From the NCBI GenBank assembly GCA_030040865.1, contig JASHSX010000138.1:1-34237 (forward strand): a stretch of 34,237 nt of DNA. The letters run 5' to 3'. Position 1 is the first letter of the stretch. Every line of letters begins with the position of its first letter. Shown piece by piece: positions 27,624 to 32,107 of the stretch. Under the pieces are notes generated by a model that saw only the letters and a program-made list of their open reading frames with translations, was not told the origin of the DNA and did not search any database. Source of the DNA: Thermoplasmata archaeon. Lineage in GTDB: Archaea; Thermoplasmatota; Thermoplasmata; Lutacidiplasmatales; UBA184. Both the position numbers and the translations under genes were made by a program.

Positions 27624-28400
27624 ATGCAGACCGCCGACGTCCGGATCGTCGACACGCGCGACGAGTCACTGAAGGGCGCGATGGTCGTGGTCGGCTTCCC
27701 GACCCACGGGCTCGTCGGATCGGTCGCCGCGTCGTACCTCGTCCACACGCTCGACATGAGCCTGATCGCGTACATGGTCAGCGAAGAGTTCCCGCCGACC
27801 GTGATCATGGAGGAGGGCGTCGTCGGCGCGCCGATCCGCTTCTACGCGAGCAAGCTCGTCTGCGGGGTCGACCGCTCCTGCGACCAGCTCGTCGTCGTCA
27901 TCGCGGATATCCAGCCGCCGGTCGAGATGCTGAACGCGCTCGGCCGGACGATCCTCGACTGGGCGGAGTCGAAGCAGGTGCAGCTCGTCGTCGCCATCGA
28001 GGGACAGCCGATCGAGAGCGAGATCCGCGGCGACGCGCGGGTCGTCGCGATGGCGAACCGGGCGGCCGCGCCGCTGCTCGACAAGTACCGCTTCGAGGCG
28101 GCCAACGGCGTCGTCACGGGCCTCGCAGGAGGGATCCTGCTCGGCGCGATCGGGCGCACGACGCCCGTGCTCTGCCTGGTCGCCCAGGCGCACAAGGATT
28201 ACCCGGACGCCCGGGCCGCGGCGAAGGTGATCGAGACGGTCAACCCGCTGGTCCCGCTCCTCGTGCTCGACACGAAGCCGCTCCGCGACAAGGCCCGCCA
28301 GATCGAGTCCGAGGTGCGGAAGACCCTCCAGCAGACCCGGGACTCGATGTCGAACATGCGGGCGAACGAATCCGAGGGGCCGGGTGAGATGTATCGCTGA
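27624..28400 (+). CDS. PAC2 family protein (archaeal proteasome-assembly-chaperone homologue)
   Basis: LKGAMVVVGFPTHGLVGSVAASYLVHTLDMSLIAYMVSEEFPPTVIMEEGVVGAPIRFYAS, VVVIADIQPPVEMLNALGRTILDWAESKQVQLVVAIEGQP, NGVVTGLAGGILLGAIGRTTPVLCLVAQAHKDYPDARAAAKVIETVN. Confidence 0.92.
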   Translation: MQTADVRIVDTRDESLKGAMVVVGFPTHGLVGSVAASYLVHTLDMSLIAYMVSEEFPPTVIMEEGVVGAPIRFYASKLVCGVDRSCDQLVVVIADIQPPVEMLNALGRTILDWAESKQVQLVVAIEGQPIESEIRGDARVVAMANRAAAPLLDKYRFEAANGVVTGLAGGILLGAIGRTTPVLCLVAQAHKDYPDARAAAKVIETVNPLVPLLVLDTKPLRDKARQIESEVRKTLQQTRDSMSNMRANESEGPGEMYR

Positions 28401-28905
28401 CACGGCCCCCCGGCCGGTGAGCGCCTCCCTGCCGCCGAACCCTCCGCCGGTGACCCTGCGCGCCTTCCGGCCGTCCGACGTCCCGTTCGTCTCCGGCATC
28501 GTGGCGGAGGCGCTCCACGAGCACTACGAGCCGTCGCTCTACCAGTCCCTGAGCGTCGAGTGGAACGACGGCTTCCTCGTCGCGTCGGACCCGCACGACG
28601 TGCCGATCGGCTTCCTCCTCGGGGTGACCCAGGTCGACCGGGAGGCGCGCGTCCTCATGTTCGCGGTCGAACGCAACCACCGGACGCTCGGCGTGGGCAC
28701 GCTCCTCATGGACGCCTTCCTCGAGCGGTGCCGCGTCCGGGGGTTCCGGCGGGTCACGCTCGAGGTCCGGGTGTCGAACGCGACTGCGATCCGGTTCTAC
28801 ACCCGCTACCGGTTCTCCGTCACGGACCTCCTTCGTTCGTACTACTCCGACGGCGAGAACGGCTACCAGATGGCGCTCGACCTGGTCGCTCCCGCGGCCG
28901 GGTGA
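28384..28905 (+). CDS. GNAT acetyltransferase, RimI/Ard1-like N-terminal acetyltransferase
   Basis: VTLRAFRPSDVPFVSGIVAEAL, VLMFAVERNHRTLGVGTLLMDAFLERCRVRGFRRVTLEVRVSNATAIRFYTRYRFSVTDLLRSYYSDGENGYQMALDL: acetyl-CoA motif RxxGxG plus the YYxDGExxxxM motif of archaeal Ard1. Start 28384 (GTG) or 28417 (GTG). Confidence 0.88.
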   Translation: MRCIADTAPRPVSASLPPNPPPVTLRAFRPSDVPFVSGIVAEALHEHYEPSLYQSLSVEWNDGFLVASDPHDVPIGFLLGVTQVDREARVLMFAVERNHRTLGVGTLLMDAFLERCRVRGFRRVTLEVRVSNATAIRFYTRYRFSVTDLLRSYYSDGENGYQMALDLVAPAAG

Positions 28906-28943
28906 CCAAAGCCGCTAAGTCCTCCGGCCCGGCTGACCCGCCG

Positions 28944-30176
28944 ATGCCCGCGGCATGGCCGTCGGTCGGCGAGCTCATGACCCGCGACCCGGTCACGCTG
29001 CCGCACGACGCCCCGATCGCGAAGGCGCTCGGCCTCATGCGCACGCGCGGGTTCCACGAGATCCCGGTCCTCCGCAACGCCCGGCTCGCGGGGATGATCA
29101 CGTTCGAGTCGATCGCCCGTCGGGTCCGTGGCTCGCTCACGACCAAGGTCGAGAGCCTCCTGATCCTGCCGCCGCTCGTCACCCCATCGACCACGCTCGC
29201 CGAGATCGCGGGCCAGCTGCTCGCGACCGGGCTGCGGGCGGCTCCCGTGGTCGGCCGCCGCGGCGAGCTCGTCGGGATCGTGAGCCGCACCGACCTCGTC
29301 CGGGCGCTTCGCAACGCTCCGGTGGCGGCGCGCGCGACCGTCGAGTCGATCGCGAGCCCGGCGTCCGTCGTGATCCGGGAGGACGACCAGGTGCGCCACC
29401 TGCTCGCCCAGCTCCGCCTGCTCGAGGAGCACCCGCTCCCCGTCGTCGATCGGAAGGGTCGCCTCGTGGGAGCCGTCGGCGTCGCGGACCTGGGGGCGGT
29501 CCTCTGGCGTCCCACAGCGGGCGGCAAGGCGGACGCGAAGACCGGCCGGTCCGCCCTCGAGGTCGAGGTCGCCTCGATCATGCGCTCCCCCGCGATTACC
29601 GTCCCGACCGGCACGTCGGCCGCGGAAGCGGCGGCGATGATGAGCCGGGAGAAGGTGTCGAGCGTCTTCGTCGTCGAGGGCGGCCGCCCGACGCGCGTCG
29701 TCGGTCAGTCCGACCTGCTGGGGCTGCTCGTCGGGGCCACGCGCGCCGCACTCCCGGGCGGAGGCGTCGAGGACGTCTACGTCGAGATCACGGGGCTGCG
29801 GGGCTCCGCCGATCCGGCGTTGCTCGCGGACATCGACCACGTGGTCGCCGCGGGCCTACGGCGCATCGCGAAGCACCTCCACCCGACGTTGCTCACGCTC
29901 CACTTCGCGCCCCACGCGACGCACCGCACCAACGATCTCACGGTCGAGGCGCGGCTTCACACCGACGTCGGGATCTTCTACGCCTCGCACACCGGCTGGA
30001 ACTTGATGGCCGGCGTCGCCGGGCTCCTCGAGGAGCTCGCCGGCCAGGCGCGCCGAACCCGCGAGGAGCAGCGGCCCCGCGGTCGGGGCCGAAGGGCGGC
30101 CGGGGCCGACGCCACGCTGTTCGTCGATGCGGAGCTCGAGGCGAAGATCCGCTCCGCGAGCGGGGCGGACGAATAG
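28944..30176 (+). CDS. Four-CBS-domain protein with C-terminal HPF/RaiA-like domain (putative ribosome-associated factor)
   Basis: Four CBS repeats: VGELMTRDPVTLPHDAPIAKALGLMRTRGFHEIPVLRNARLAGMITFESI; TLAEIAGQLLATGLRAAPVVGRRGELVGIVSRTDLVRAL; VRHLLAQLRLLEEHPLPVVDRKGRLVGAVGVADL; VASIMRSPAITVPTGTSAAEAAAMMSREKVSSVFVVEGGRPTRVVGQSDL. These are followed by VYVEITGLRGSADPALLADIDHVVAAGLRRIAKHLHPTLLTLHFAP...NDLTVEARLHTDVGIFYASHTGWNLMAGVAGLLEELAGQARR. CBS calls firm; HPF-like call is inference. Confidence 0.9.
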   Translation: MPAAWPSVGELMTRDPVTLPHDAPIAKALGLMRTRGFHEIPVLRNARLAGMITFESIARRVRGSLTTKVESLLILPPLVTPSTTLAEIAGQLLATGLRAAPVVGRRGELVGIVSRTDLVRALRNAPVAARATVESIASPASVVIREDDQVRHLLAQLRLLEEHPLPVVDRKGRLVGAVGVADLGAVLWRPTAGGKADAKTGRSALEVEVASIMRSPAITVPTGTSAAEAAAMMSREKVSSVFVVEGGRPTRVVGQSDLLGLLVGATRAALPGGGVEDVYVEITGLRGSADPALLADIDHVVAAGLRRIAKHLHPTLLTLHFAPHATHRTNDLTVEARLHTDVGIFYASHTGWNLMAGVAGLLEELAGQARRTREEQRPRGRGRRAAGADATLFVDAELEAKIRSASGADE

Positions 30177-30188
30177 GAGGCGACGGCG

Positions 30189-30602
30189 GTGGCGGTCCCC
30201 AACATGCCGCGCGACCCGCGGCAGATGCAGATGATGATGCGGCGGCTCGGCATGAAGACGGAGGAGGTGCCGGACGTCGAGGAGGTGATCGTCCGCACCC
30301 GCACGAAGGACCACGTCTTCCGCGCACCGTCGGTGACGATCCTCACGATCCAGGGCGTGCGGACGTACCAGGTGGTGGGCACCCCCGAACTCCGACCGCG
30401 CGGGGCGGGCGGGACCGCGGCCCCGGCGTCGGGTCCGGCGATCTCCGCCCCCGCGGCACCGGCCGGGCCTCCCGAGGAGGACATCCGGCTGGTCATGGAG
30501 CAGGCGAACGTCTCGCACGAGGAGGCGGTCGAGGCGCTCCTCCAGGCGCACGGCGAACCGGCGGAGGCGATCATGAAGATCCTCTCCCGGGGCGGCGGGT
30601 GA
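30189..30602 (+). CDS. Nascent polypeptide-associated complex protein (archaeal NAC) with C-terminal UBA
   Basis: MPRDPRQMQMMMRRLGMKTEEVPDVEEVIVRTRTKDHVFRAPSVTILTIQGVRTYQVVGTPE (NAC domain), then EEDIRLVMEQANVSHEEAVEALLQAHGEPAEAIMKI (UBA). GTG start. Confidence 0.95.
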   Translation: MAVPNMPRDPRQMQMMMRRLGMKTEEVPDVEEVIVRTRTKDHVFRAPSVTILTIQGVRTYQVVGTPELRPRGAGGTAAPASGPAISAPAAPAGPPEEDIRLVMEQANVSHEEAVEALLQAHGEPAEAIMKILSRGGG

Positions 30603-31048
30603 GCGGCGCCGCCGGCCCGATCGCCCAGGAATGCGTCGAGGGGTACCTCTTCGCGACGCCGCCGGTCGAGCTGCTCCTGTTCCGCCGTCCGCCTGCCCGA
30701 GGGCGGTTCTGGGTGCCGATCAGCGGCAAGGTGGAGCCGACCGACCCGGACTTCGAGGGCGCCCTGCGCCGGGAGCTCGCGGAGGAGACCGGCCTCGCCC
30801 GTCCGCGGGATGTGTTCCCCCTCGACTGGGACGTCACGTTCCCCTCGGAGTCGGGCGCCCCGTGGCGGCTCCATGCGTTCGGCGTCGAGGTCGCGCGGTC
30901 GTTCCGGCCCCGCCTGAGCGACGAGCACGACGACGCGGCGTGGGTAGGGCCCGACGACGCGATCGCGCGACTGCACTTCGAGGACAACCGGGCGGCCGTT
31001 CCCCGGCTGCTCGCGCGGATCCGGGACCGTCGCTCCCCAAACGTTTAG
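30599..31048 (+). CDS. NUDIX hydrolase
   Basis: FWVPISGKVEPTDPDFEGALRRELAEETGLARPRDVF is a NUDIX box with REL-AEE-TGL; spacing from Gly to REL is one residue longer than GX5EX7REUXEEXGU. GTGA overlap with the NAC stop. Confidence 0.88.
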   Translation: MSGAAGPIAQECVEGYLFATPPVELLLFRRPPARGRFWVPISGKVEPTDPDFEGALRRELAEETGLARPRDVFPLDWDVTFPSESGAPWRLHAFGVEVARSFRPRLSDEHDDAAWVGPDDAIARLHFEDNRAAVPRLLARIRDRRSPNV

Positions 31049-31050
31049 CG
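31040..31050 (+). promoter_or_regulatory. Putative box A for dph2
   Basis: AACGTTTAGCG about 33 nt upstream of the ATG at 31079; overlaps the NUDIX stop. Confidence 0.4.
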
Positions 31051-31078
31051 CGCACCGCCGCTCGAACCGTCGAAGAAC

Positions 31079-32107
31079 ATGTCGCCGGCCGCGGACGCGC
31101 CCGCCCGCCCTGCCCGGGTCTTCCCGCGGGTCGGCCCCGAGCTCGTGGCCGCGCTCCGTGAGATCCGGCCGCAGAGGATCGTGCTGCAGGTTCCCGCGGG
31201 CCTCGTGCGGAACGCGCACGAGATCGCGGAGGGGCTGCGGACGGAGGTCGGTGCTCCCGTCGCCCTCGCGACCCGCGCCTGCTTCGGGGCGTGCGACTTC
31301 CCGTCCCGTGATGAGGCGCCGTCGGCCGACGTCGCGGTCGTCCTGGGCCACGCCCCGATCCCGAACGTCGAGCTGGTCCGCCCGACGTTCTTCGTGGAGA
31401 TGCGGGAAGCGGGCGGGGACCCGGAGCGCCTCGCCGACACGCTCGTCGCCGCCGGCGTCCCCCGGCGTCTCGGCCTCGTCTTCTCGATCCAGCATCTCGA
31501 CCTCGCCGGGCCGCTCTCCGAGAGCCTCGGGCGCCGCGGGGTCTCCGTACGGATCGGGCGCGGGGACCGCCGGCTCGCCTACGCCGGTCAGGCGCTCGGC
31601 TGCAACTACACCGGGGCCGAGGCCGTCGCCGCCGAGGTCGACGCGTTCGTCTTCGTCGGGACGGGAGCGTTCCACCCGATCGGGCTCGCGTTCGCCACCG
31701 ACCGGCCCGTCTGGAGCCTCGATCCGCTGCGGAACTCGCTCGATCCGCCGATCGACCGGGCCGAGCTCGTCGGCCGACGTCAGCTCGCGGTCGCCTCGGC
31801 CCGGGAGGCCCGGCGGTGGGGCATCTTGGTCTCGACGTTCCGGGGGCAGGACCGTCTCGGCACGGCCCGGGCGCTCGAGGAGAAGGCCCGGGCCCGAGGC
31901 CGGGACGCCGAGATCCTGCTCTTCGACCGGCTCGACCCGCGCGACCTCGAGGGCCGGGCGTTCGACGCCTACGTCAACACGGCGTGTCCGCGCATCGCGC
32001 TCGACGACGGGGCGCTGTACGGGAAGCCGATGCTGACGCCGCCCGAGTTCCTGATGGCGCTCGGCGAGCTCCCGCTCGCGCCGTACCGGTTCGACACGTA
32101 TCACTGA
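31079..32107 (+). CDS. dph2: Diphthamide biosynthesis enzyme Dph2 (radical-SAM-like [4Fe-4S] 3-amino-3-carboxypropyl transferase)
   Basis: IRPQRIVLQVPAGLVRNAHEIAEGLRTEVGAPVALATRACFGACDFP, ALGCNYTGAEAVAAEVDAFVFVGTGAFHPIGLAFAT, FDAYVNTACPRIALDDGALYGKPMLTPPEFLMALGE: three conserved-position Cys regions and the Dph2 C-terminus. Confidence 0.95.
   Translation: MSPAADAPARPARVFPRVGPELVAALREIRPQRIVLQVPAGLVRNAHEIAEGLRTEVGAPVALATRACFGACDFPSRDEAPSADVAVVLGHAPIPNVELVRPTFFVEMREAGGDPERLADTLVAAGVPRRLGLVFSIQHLDLAGPLSESLGRRGVSVRIGRGDRRLAYAGQALGCNYTGAEAVAAEVDAFVFVGTGAFHPIGLAFATDRPVWSLDPLRNSLDPPIDRAELVGRRQLAVASAREARRWGILVSTFRGQDRLGTARALEEKARARGRDAEILLFDRLDPRDLEGRAFDAYVNTACPRIALDDGALYGKPMLTPPEFLMALGELPLAPYRFDTYH

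Follow-up and report, generated by a model that had tools for sequence, protein, structure and literature searches.

A probable HibA-family ribosome hibernation protein with four CBS domains in a Thermoplasmata archaeon

The window (the whole 34,237-nucleotide stretch of Thermoplasmata DNA that was analysed) contains a gene encoding four CBS domains followed by an HPF/RaiA domain, which we refer to as hibA. It lies within a gene cluster whose members were assigned from Pfam and NCBIfam families. The features of the gene and its surroundings are as follows.

27624-32107: gene cluster PAC2 - GNAT - hibA - aNAC - NUDIX - Dph2 (diphthamide synthesis)
28426..28905, + strand: GNAT acetyltransferase, RimI-like, upstream neighbour (PF00583; TIGR01575 at 75.3 bits, below the 86.4 cut-off; synteny)
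28944..30176, + strand: hibA, predicted HibA-family four-CBS + HPF/RaiA protein, 410 aa (ORF, Pfam CBS, full-length homology, conservation)
28965..29129, + strand: CBS domain 1 (Pfam CBS, 51 bits)
29172..29312, + strand: CBS domain 2, canonical GIVSRTD nucleotide-contact motif kept, S114 and D117 (Pfam CBS, motif table)
29340..29492, + strand: CBS domain 3, motif GAVGVAD without S/T, G in 23/23 of the genus (Pfam CBS, motif table)
29514..29561, + strand: CBS3-CBS4 loop, counterpart of the PTC loop of P. abyssi HibA, residues 190-207 (alignment to 9SR9_H)
29568..29732, + strand: CBS domain 4, motif RVVGQSD without G and S/T (Pfam CBS, motif table)
29766..30071, + strand: C-terminal HPF/RaiA domain (profile, hhalign, AlphaFold2, Foldseek)
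30054..30101, + strand: basic tail, covering the end of the last helix and the residues beyond it (sequence; basic stretch conserved in congeners)
30126..30167, + strand: genus-conserved C-terminal segment D-x-ELE-x-KIR-x-A (alignment; predicted helix 396-405)
30189..30602, + strand: archaeal nascent polypeptide-associated complex protein (aNAC), downstream neighbour (TIGR00264 at 108.7 bits, over the cut-off; PF01849; synteny)

The hibA reading frame runs from ATG 28944 to the stop codon at 30174-30176, giving 410 residues. An in-frame GTG at 28902, overlapping the stop codon (TGA) of the GNAT gene upstream, was rejected as the start because it is not conserved and congeners align at ATG 28944. 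Among close relatives, the upstream stop typically lies ~50 nt from the hibA ATG.

Matches to the window protein were present in 41 of 41 genomes (its own and 40 relatives). Across the full length, identity was 54-80% for almost all genomes of the genus; other families showed ~24-34%. The relatives that carry names are Thermoplasmata MAGs, pointing to an uncultured archaeon of this class as the source of the window. A clade profile detected the C-terminal domain in 57 of 61 genus genomes; the four without a match have completeness values of 59-71%. This conservation across genomes rules out chance for the observed domain architecture. The domain was also detected in 94 of 196 sampled genomes of the phylum, mostly in frames of HibA-like length, which agrees with the published detection of HibA in 47% of archaeal genomes (PMC13324472). 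No second four-CBS gene was found in the window's own genome (~80% complete). That genome does encode SBDS, the companion factor in the HibA paper (PMC13324472).

In a few relatives, the main gene is accompanied by an adjacent, diverged HibA-like copy: L043:1757-2962 (G022:C6), G007:C95:32-805, and L051 (G029:C22). In the two same-genus cases this copy shares 43-44% identity with the window protein, and the G007 copy is partial. Tandem HibA-like pairs were likewise seen in the same class at L134:2438-4964 (G255:C29) and L135:2990-5437 (G221:C3), with a third copy at a separate place in G221 (L136).

Pfam CBS matched the protein four times (E=1.5e-42), confirming the four repeats read in a preliminary description of the locus. 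That description had also read the C-terminus as beta-alpha-beta-beta-beta-alpha, the HPF/RaiA order. AlphaFold2 elements (E279-283, H291-309, E314-323, E332-340, E344-351, H354-376) agree, and both strands and helices had been placed correctly. The domain limits needed slight widening, from 29774..30060 to ~29766-30071. Modelled alone, the domain gave a mean pLDDT of 88.5 with its element order unchanged. When this model was searched against the PDB with Foldseek, the top 36 matches were all HPF/RaiA/pY, with no ACT fold among them and a target-normalised TM of 0.7-0.8 for most.

We also prepared a profile (A2) from the C-terminal domains of 23 relatives. Against the PDB, 25 of its 27 matches at E<=10 were HPF/RaiA/pY or archaeal CBS-HPF chains (9SR9, 9L96), the best at 3.1e-5. 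Alignment of the C-terminal profile by hhalign gave E=8.5e-7 for E. coli HPF and E=1.1e-5 for RaiA. Comparison with the S30AE family proposed at the outset succeeded in part: with a loose threshold, PF02482 (Ribosomal_S30AE) was detected in 17 of the 23 domains in the alignment, 6e-9 being the best value, while the window's own C-terminus alone had no meaningful match in Pfam. Taken by itself, this null result would wrongly have implied the absence of an HPF domain. PF02482 rose above the Pfam cut-off in 8 relatives outside the genus and in none of 19 genus genomes (its own and 18 congeners). Pfam annotation therefore misses the HPF domain in 19/19 genus genomes, compared with its detection by the clade profile in 57/61. 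Two residues conserved family-wide, R337 and W352, are retained in the window protein. The aligned sequences also appear to have longer loops than E. coli HPF at the beta13-alpha11 and beta14-beta15 places, the positions of the two archaeal insertions reported for the HPF domain of HibA (PMC13324472).

The basic tail in which the protein had been described as ending is present; however, it is not the end of the protein. In the genus it is followed by the D-x-ELE-x-KIR-x-A segment, which almost every one of 40 close relatives shares and which, by sequence comparison, other families of the class lack.

To identify full-length homologues, we searched the PDB with a second profile (A1) representing the full-length family of the window protein. 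The best match was 9SR9_H (E=4e-57), with profile positions 6-372 covering residues 4-379 of the 392 in HibA, its HPF domain among them. This chain belongs to the HibA-ATP entry (PMC13324472). A1 also matched both the CBS and HPF parts of PDB 9l96_a, a chain of 406 aa named 'CBS domain-containing protein' that looks like another HibA; a literature search found no paper for it. Foldseek with the whole model placed a ribosome-bound CBS protein of Methanosarcina first (9znf_4, an SriA/SriB entry), with Dri and SriC/SriD entries also among the top matches. HibA entries were not in the fold-search results (the library ends 2026-04-08), and P. abyssi HibA was compared by sequence only.

The ribosome-bound proteins Dri (Pyrobaculum) and SriA-D (Methanosarcina) share the fold of the four-CBS module with the window protein. 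In contrast, Sri chains are 270-339 aa long, Dri consists of two CBS modules, and neither matched the HPF profile. Bacterial HPF/RaiA/pY proteins (PF02482) share the fold and profile similarity of the C-terminal domain but are without a CBS module, and the HPF domain of the window protein is below Pfam detection. P. abyssi HibA (Q9UYR4 / Pab0961; PDB 9SR9-9SRF, 9T7H; PMC13324472) combines four CBS domains, a CBS3-CBS4 loop, and a C-terminal HPF/RaiA domain as the window protein does, and the two are similar in length (392 versus 410 residues). The window protein differs in its low identity to P. abyssi HibA, a shorter PTC loop, an extra conserved C-terminal segment, and a gene that adjoins aNAC.

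Because identity is low and there is no significant Pfam match to S30AE, assignment to the HibA family rests on profiles and the predicted fold. Together with the full-length homology, these agree with the identity first proposed, an archaeal ribosome hibernation factor. We estimate a probability of roughly 0.92 that the window gene is the Thermoplasmata orthologue of hibA, encoding a ribosome-silencing hibernation factor. Two observations count against this reading: the counterpart of the PTC loop is shorter by about two residues, and the nucleotide motifs of CBS3 and CBS4 are degraded. The reports of CBS-containing archaeal hibernation proteins that the preliminary description had mentioned without citation do exist (PMC13324472; HVO_2384 in PMC12607858). 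Its label of 'candidate' is outdated, as the family is already published as HibA (PMC13324472, April 2026), and the window gene adds a member. Three details of this lineage go beyond the available account of HibA in that paper, namely the degradation of the CBS3/CBS4 motifs, the probable operon with aNAC, and the genus-specific tail.

The HibA paper (PMC13324472, Nat Commun, 27 April 2026) brings together cryo-EM, translation assays in vitro, and a gene knockout. In its account, HibA has four CBS domains in tandem (residues 1-269) joined to an HPF/RaiA domain (270-392), and was visualised on 70S ribosomes of P. abyssi by cryo-EM. The CBS module of HibA falls in a clade that is sister to CM-5, one of the groups CM-1 to CM-6. 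The HPF domain occupies the mRNA/tRNA channel of the 30S subunit, the CBS module was seen in three positions at the 50S subunit side, and the CBS3-CBS4 loop reaches into the peptidyl-transferase centre (PMC13324472). HibA inhibits translation in vitro, and deletion of hibA in Thermococcus barophilus lowered stationary-phase 70S by ~60% and delayed regrowth (PMC13324472). The Haloferax counterpart, the CBS-RHF protein HVO_2384, was reported by another group (PMC12607858) and by description likewise has a CBS module and a C-terminal domain resembling hibernation factors.

Domain make-up, fold, full-length HibA homology, conservation, and gene context were determined for the window protein itself, and by homology we infer that it acts on ribosomes as the P. 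abyssi and T. barophilus proteins do. As in HibA, its C-terminal HPF/RaiA domain would anchor to the 30S subunit, and its CBS module would occupy the 50S side. The two parts together would hold idle 70S ribosomes intact, inactive, and protected until the protein is displaced by competing mRNA and tRNA. The CBS3-CBS4 loop spans 16 residues in the window protein and 18 in P. abyssi HibA by alignment, and AlphaFold2 gave low pLDDT at its residues 196-199.

In CBS domains, a G-x-x-S/T-x-x-D motif contacts the phosphate and ribose of nucleotides. We tabulated these motifs in alignment A1, where the genus is represented by 23 sequences. CBS2 keeps S in 23/23 and D in 21/23, with the canonical G-x-x-S-x-x-D in 21/23. 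In CBS3, G replaces S/T in all 23, and loss of S/T here is also common elsewhere in the class. In CBS4, G is lost in 15/23 and S/T in 17/23. The window protein itself retains D in both CBS3 (D182) and CBS4 (D257) while S/T is missing from both. P. abyssi HibA has the reverse arrangement: in the alignment its CBS3 (GLVTLHD) and CBS4 (GILTVKD) are canonical, with T-x-x-D in both, whereas its CBS2 (GVISDMA) is without D. This pattern tentatively suggests a relocated or weaker adenylate site in the genus. Adenylate binding is likely within the HibA family.

The same motifs bear on the earlier proposal that energy charge, sensed by the CBS domains, controls ribosome binding. An adenylate switch of this kind would be an addition to the HibA reading, not a substitute for it. 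The CBS module of P. abyssi HibA does bind AMP, ADP, and ATP in that order of affinity (Kd of 12, 65, and 113 uM), with the nucleotide between CBS3 and CBS4 (PMC13324472), and CBS2 is canonical in most of the window's genus. However, the paper reports no clear effect of AMP or ATP on ribosome binding by P. abyssi HibA and a largely unchanged conformational landscape, and its authors allow that nucleotide might act when HibA is released or when a partner sequesters it (PMC13324472). The P. abyssi-type site is also degraded in the window protein, with S/T lost from CBS3 throughout the genus and from CBS4 in most members. The proposal was not upheld, and we consider nucleotide gating unlikely.

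The order PAC2 - GNAT - hibA - aNAC - NUDIX - Dph2 is kept across ~40 close relatives, contig ends permitting and with few insertions. Other genera of the family (L130-L133) have the complete cluster or portions of it, and among the relatives checked it is not kept outside this Thermoplasmata family. The gap between hibA and aNAC is 12 nt in the window and about -7 to 30 nt among relatives. Spacing and orientation point to a tight operon in which hibA lies just upstream of aNAC. Since aNAC is a ribosome-associated chaperone, this context fits a hibernation role. On the GNAT side, a Haloferax GNAT variant co-purifies with HVO_2384 (PMC12607858); the link for the window hibA is gene adjacency only, and orthology to Pat2 is not implied.

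The family-wide proximity to aNAC and GNAT, that co-purification (PMC12607858), the degraded CBS3/4 motifs, the added conserved tail, and the extra HibA copies in some relatives would all suit a member of the HibA family whose role has changed in this lineage. Such a protein could, for example, be a CBS regulator of nascent-chain handling with aNAC and GNAT that performs little or no ribosome silencing. Nevertheless, the window protein retains the HPF fold with R337 and W352, and its gene is the sole four-CBS gene found in the genome and near-universal in the genus. As aNAC binds ribosomes, the cluster fits hibernation as well, and we regard a changed role as very improbable. A metabolic CBS regulator with a C-terminal ACT or other small alpha/beta domain is effectively ruled out: CBS-ACT proteins exist (1vr9) and Pfam returned nothing meaningful for this C-terminus, but the top 36 Foldseek matches, nearly all profile matches, and both hhalign results are HPF/RaiA.

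The HibA orthologue reading supplies a functional name for a gene that Pfam and NCBIfam, across a whole Thermoplasmata genus, annotate as nothing more than a CBS protein. With its degraded CBS3/4 motifs, this diverged HibA is a natural mutant of the P. abyssi site that could serve for testing the role of the nucleotide. The aNAC gene cluster provides a lead on hibernation coupled with nascent-chain factors. More speculatively, and with a low probability in our view, this Thermoplasmata family may have a HibA variant in which the adenylate site has shifted from CBS3/4 to CBS1/2 or disappeared. Such a variant would also carry the conserved extra tail close to the mRNA exit and be co-expressed with aNAC and the GNAT. 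Hibernation would then respond to other signals and be coupled to nascent-chain factors.
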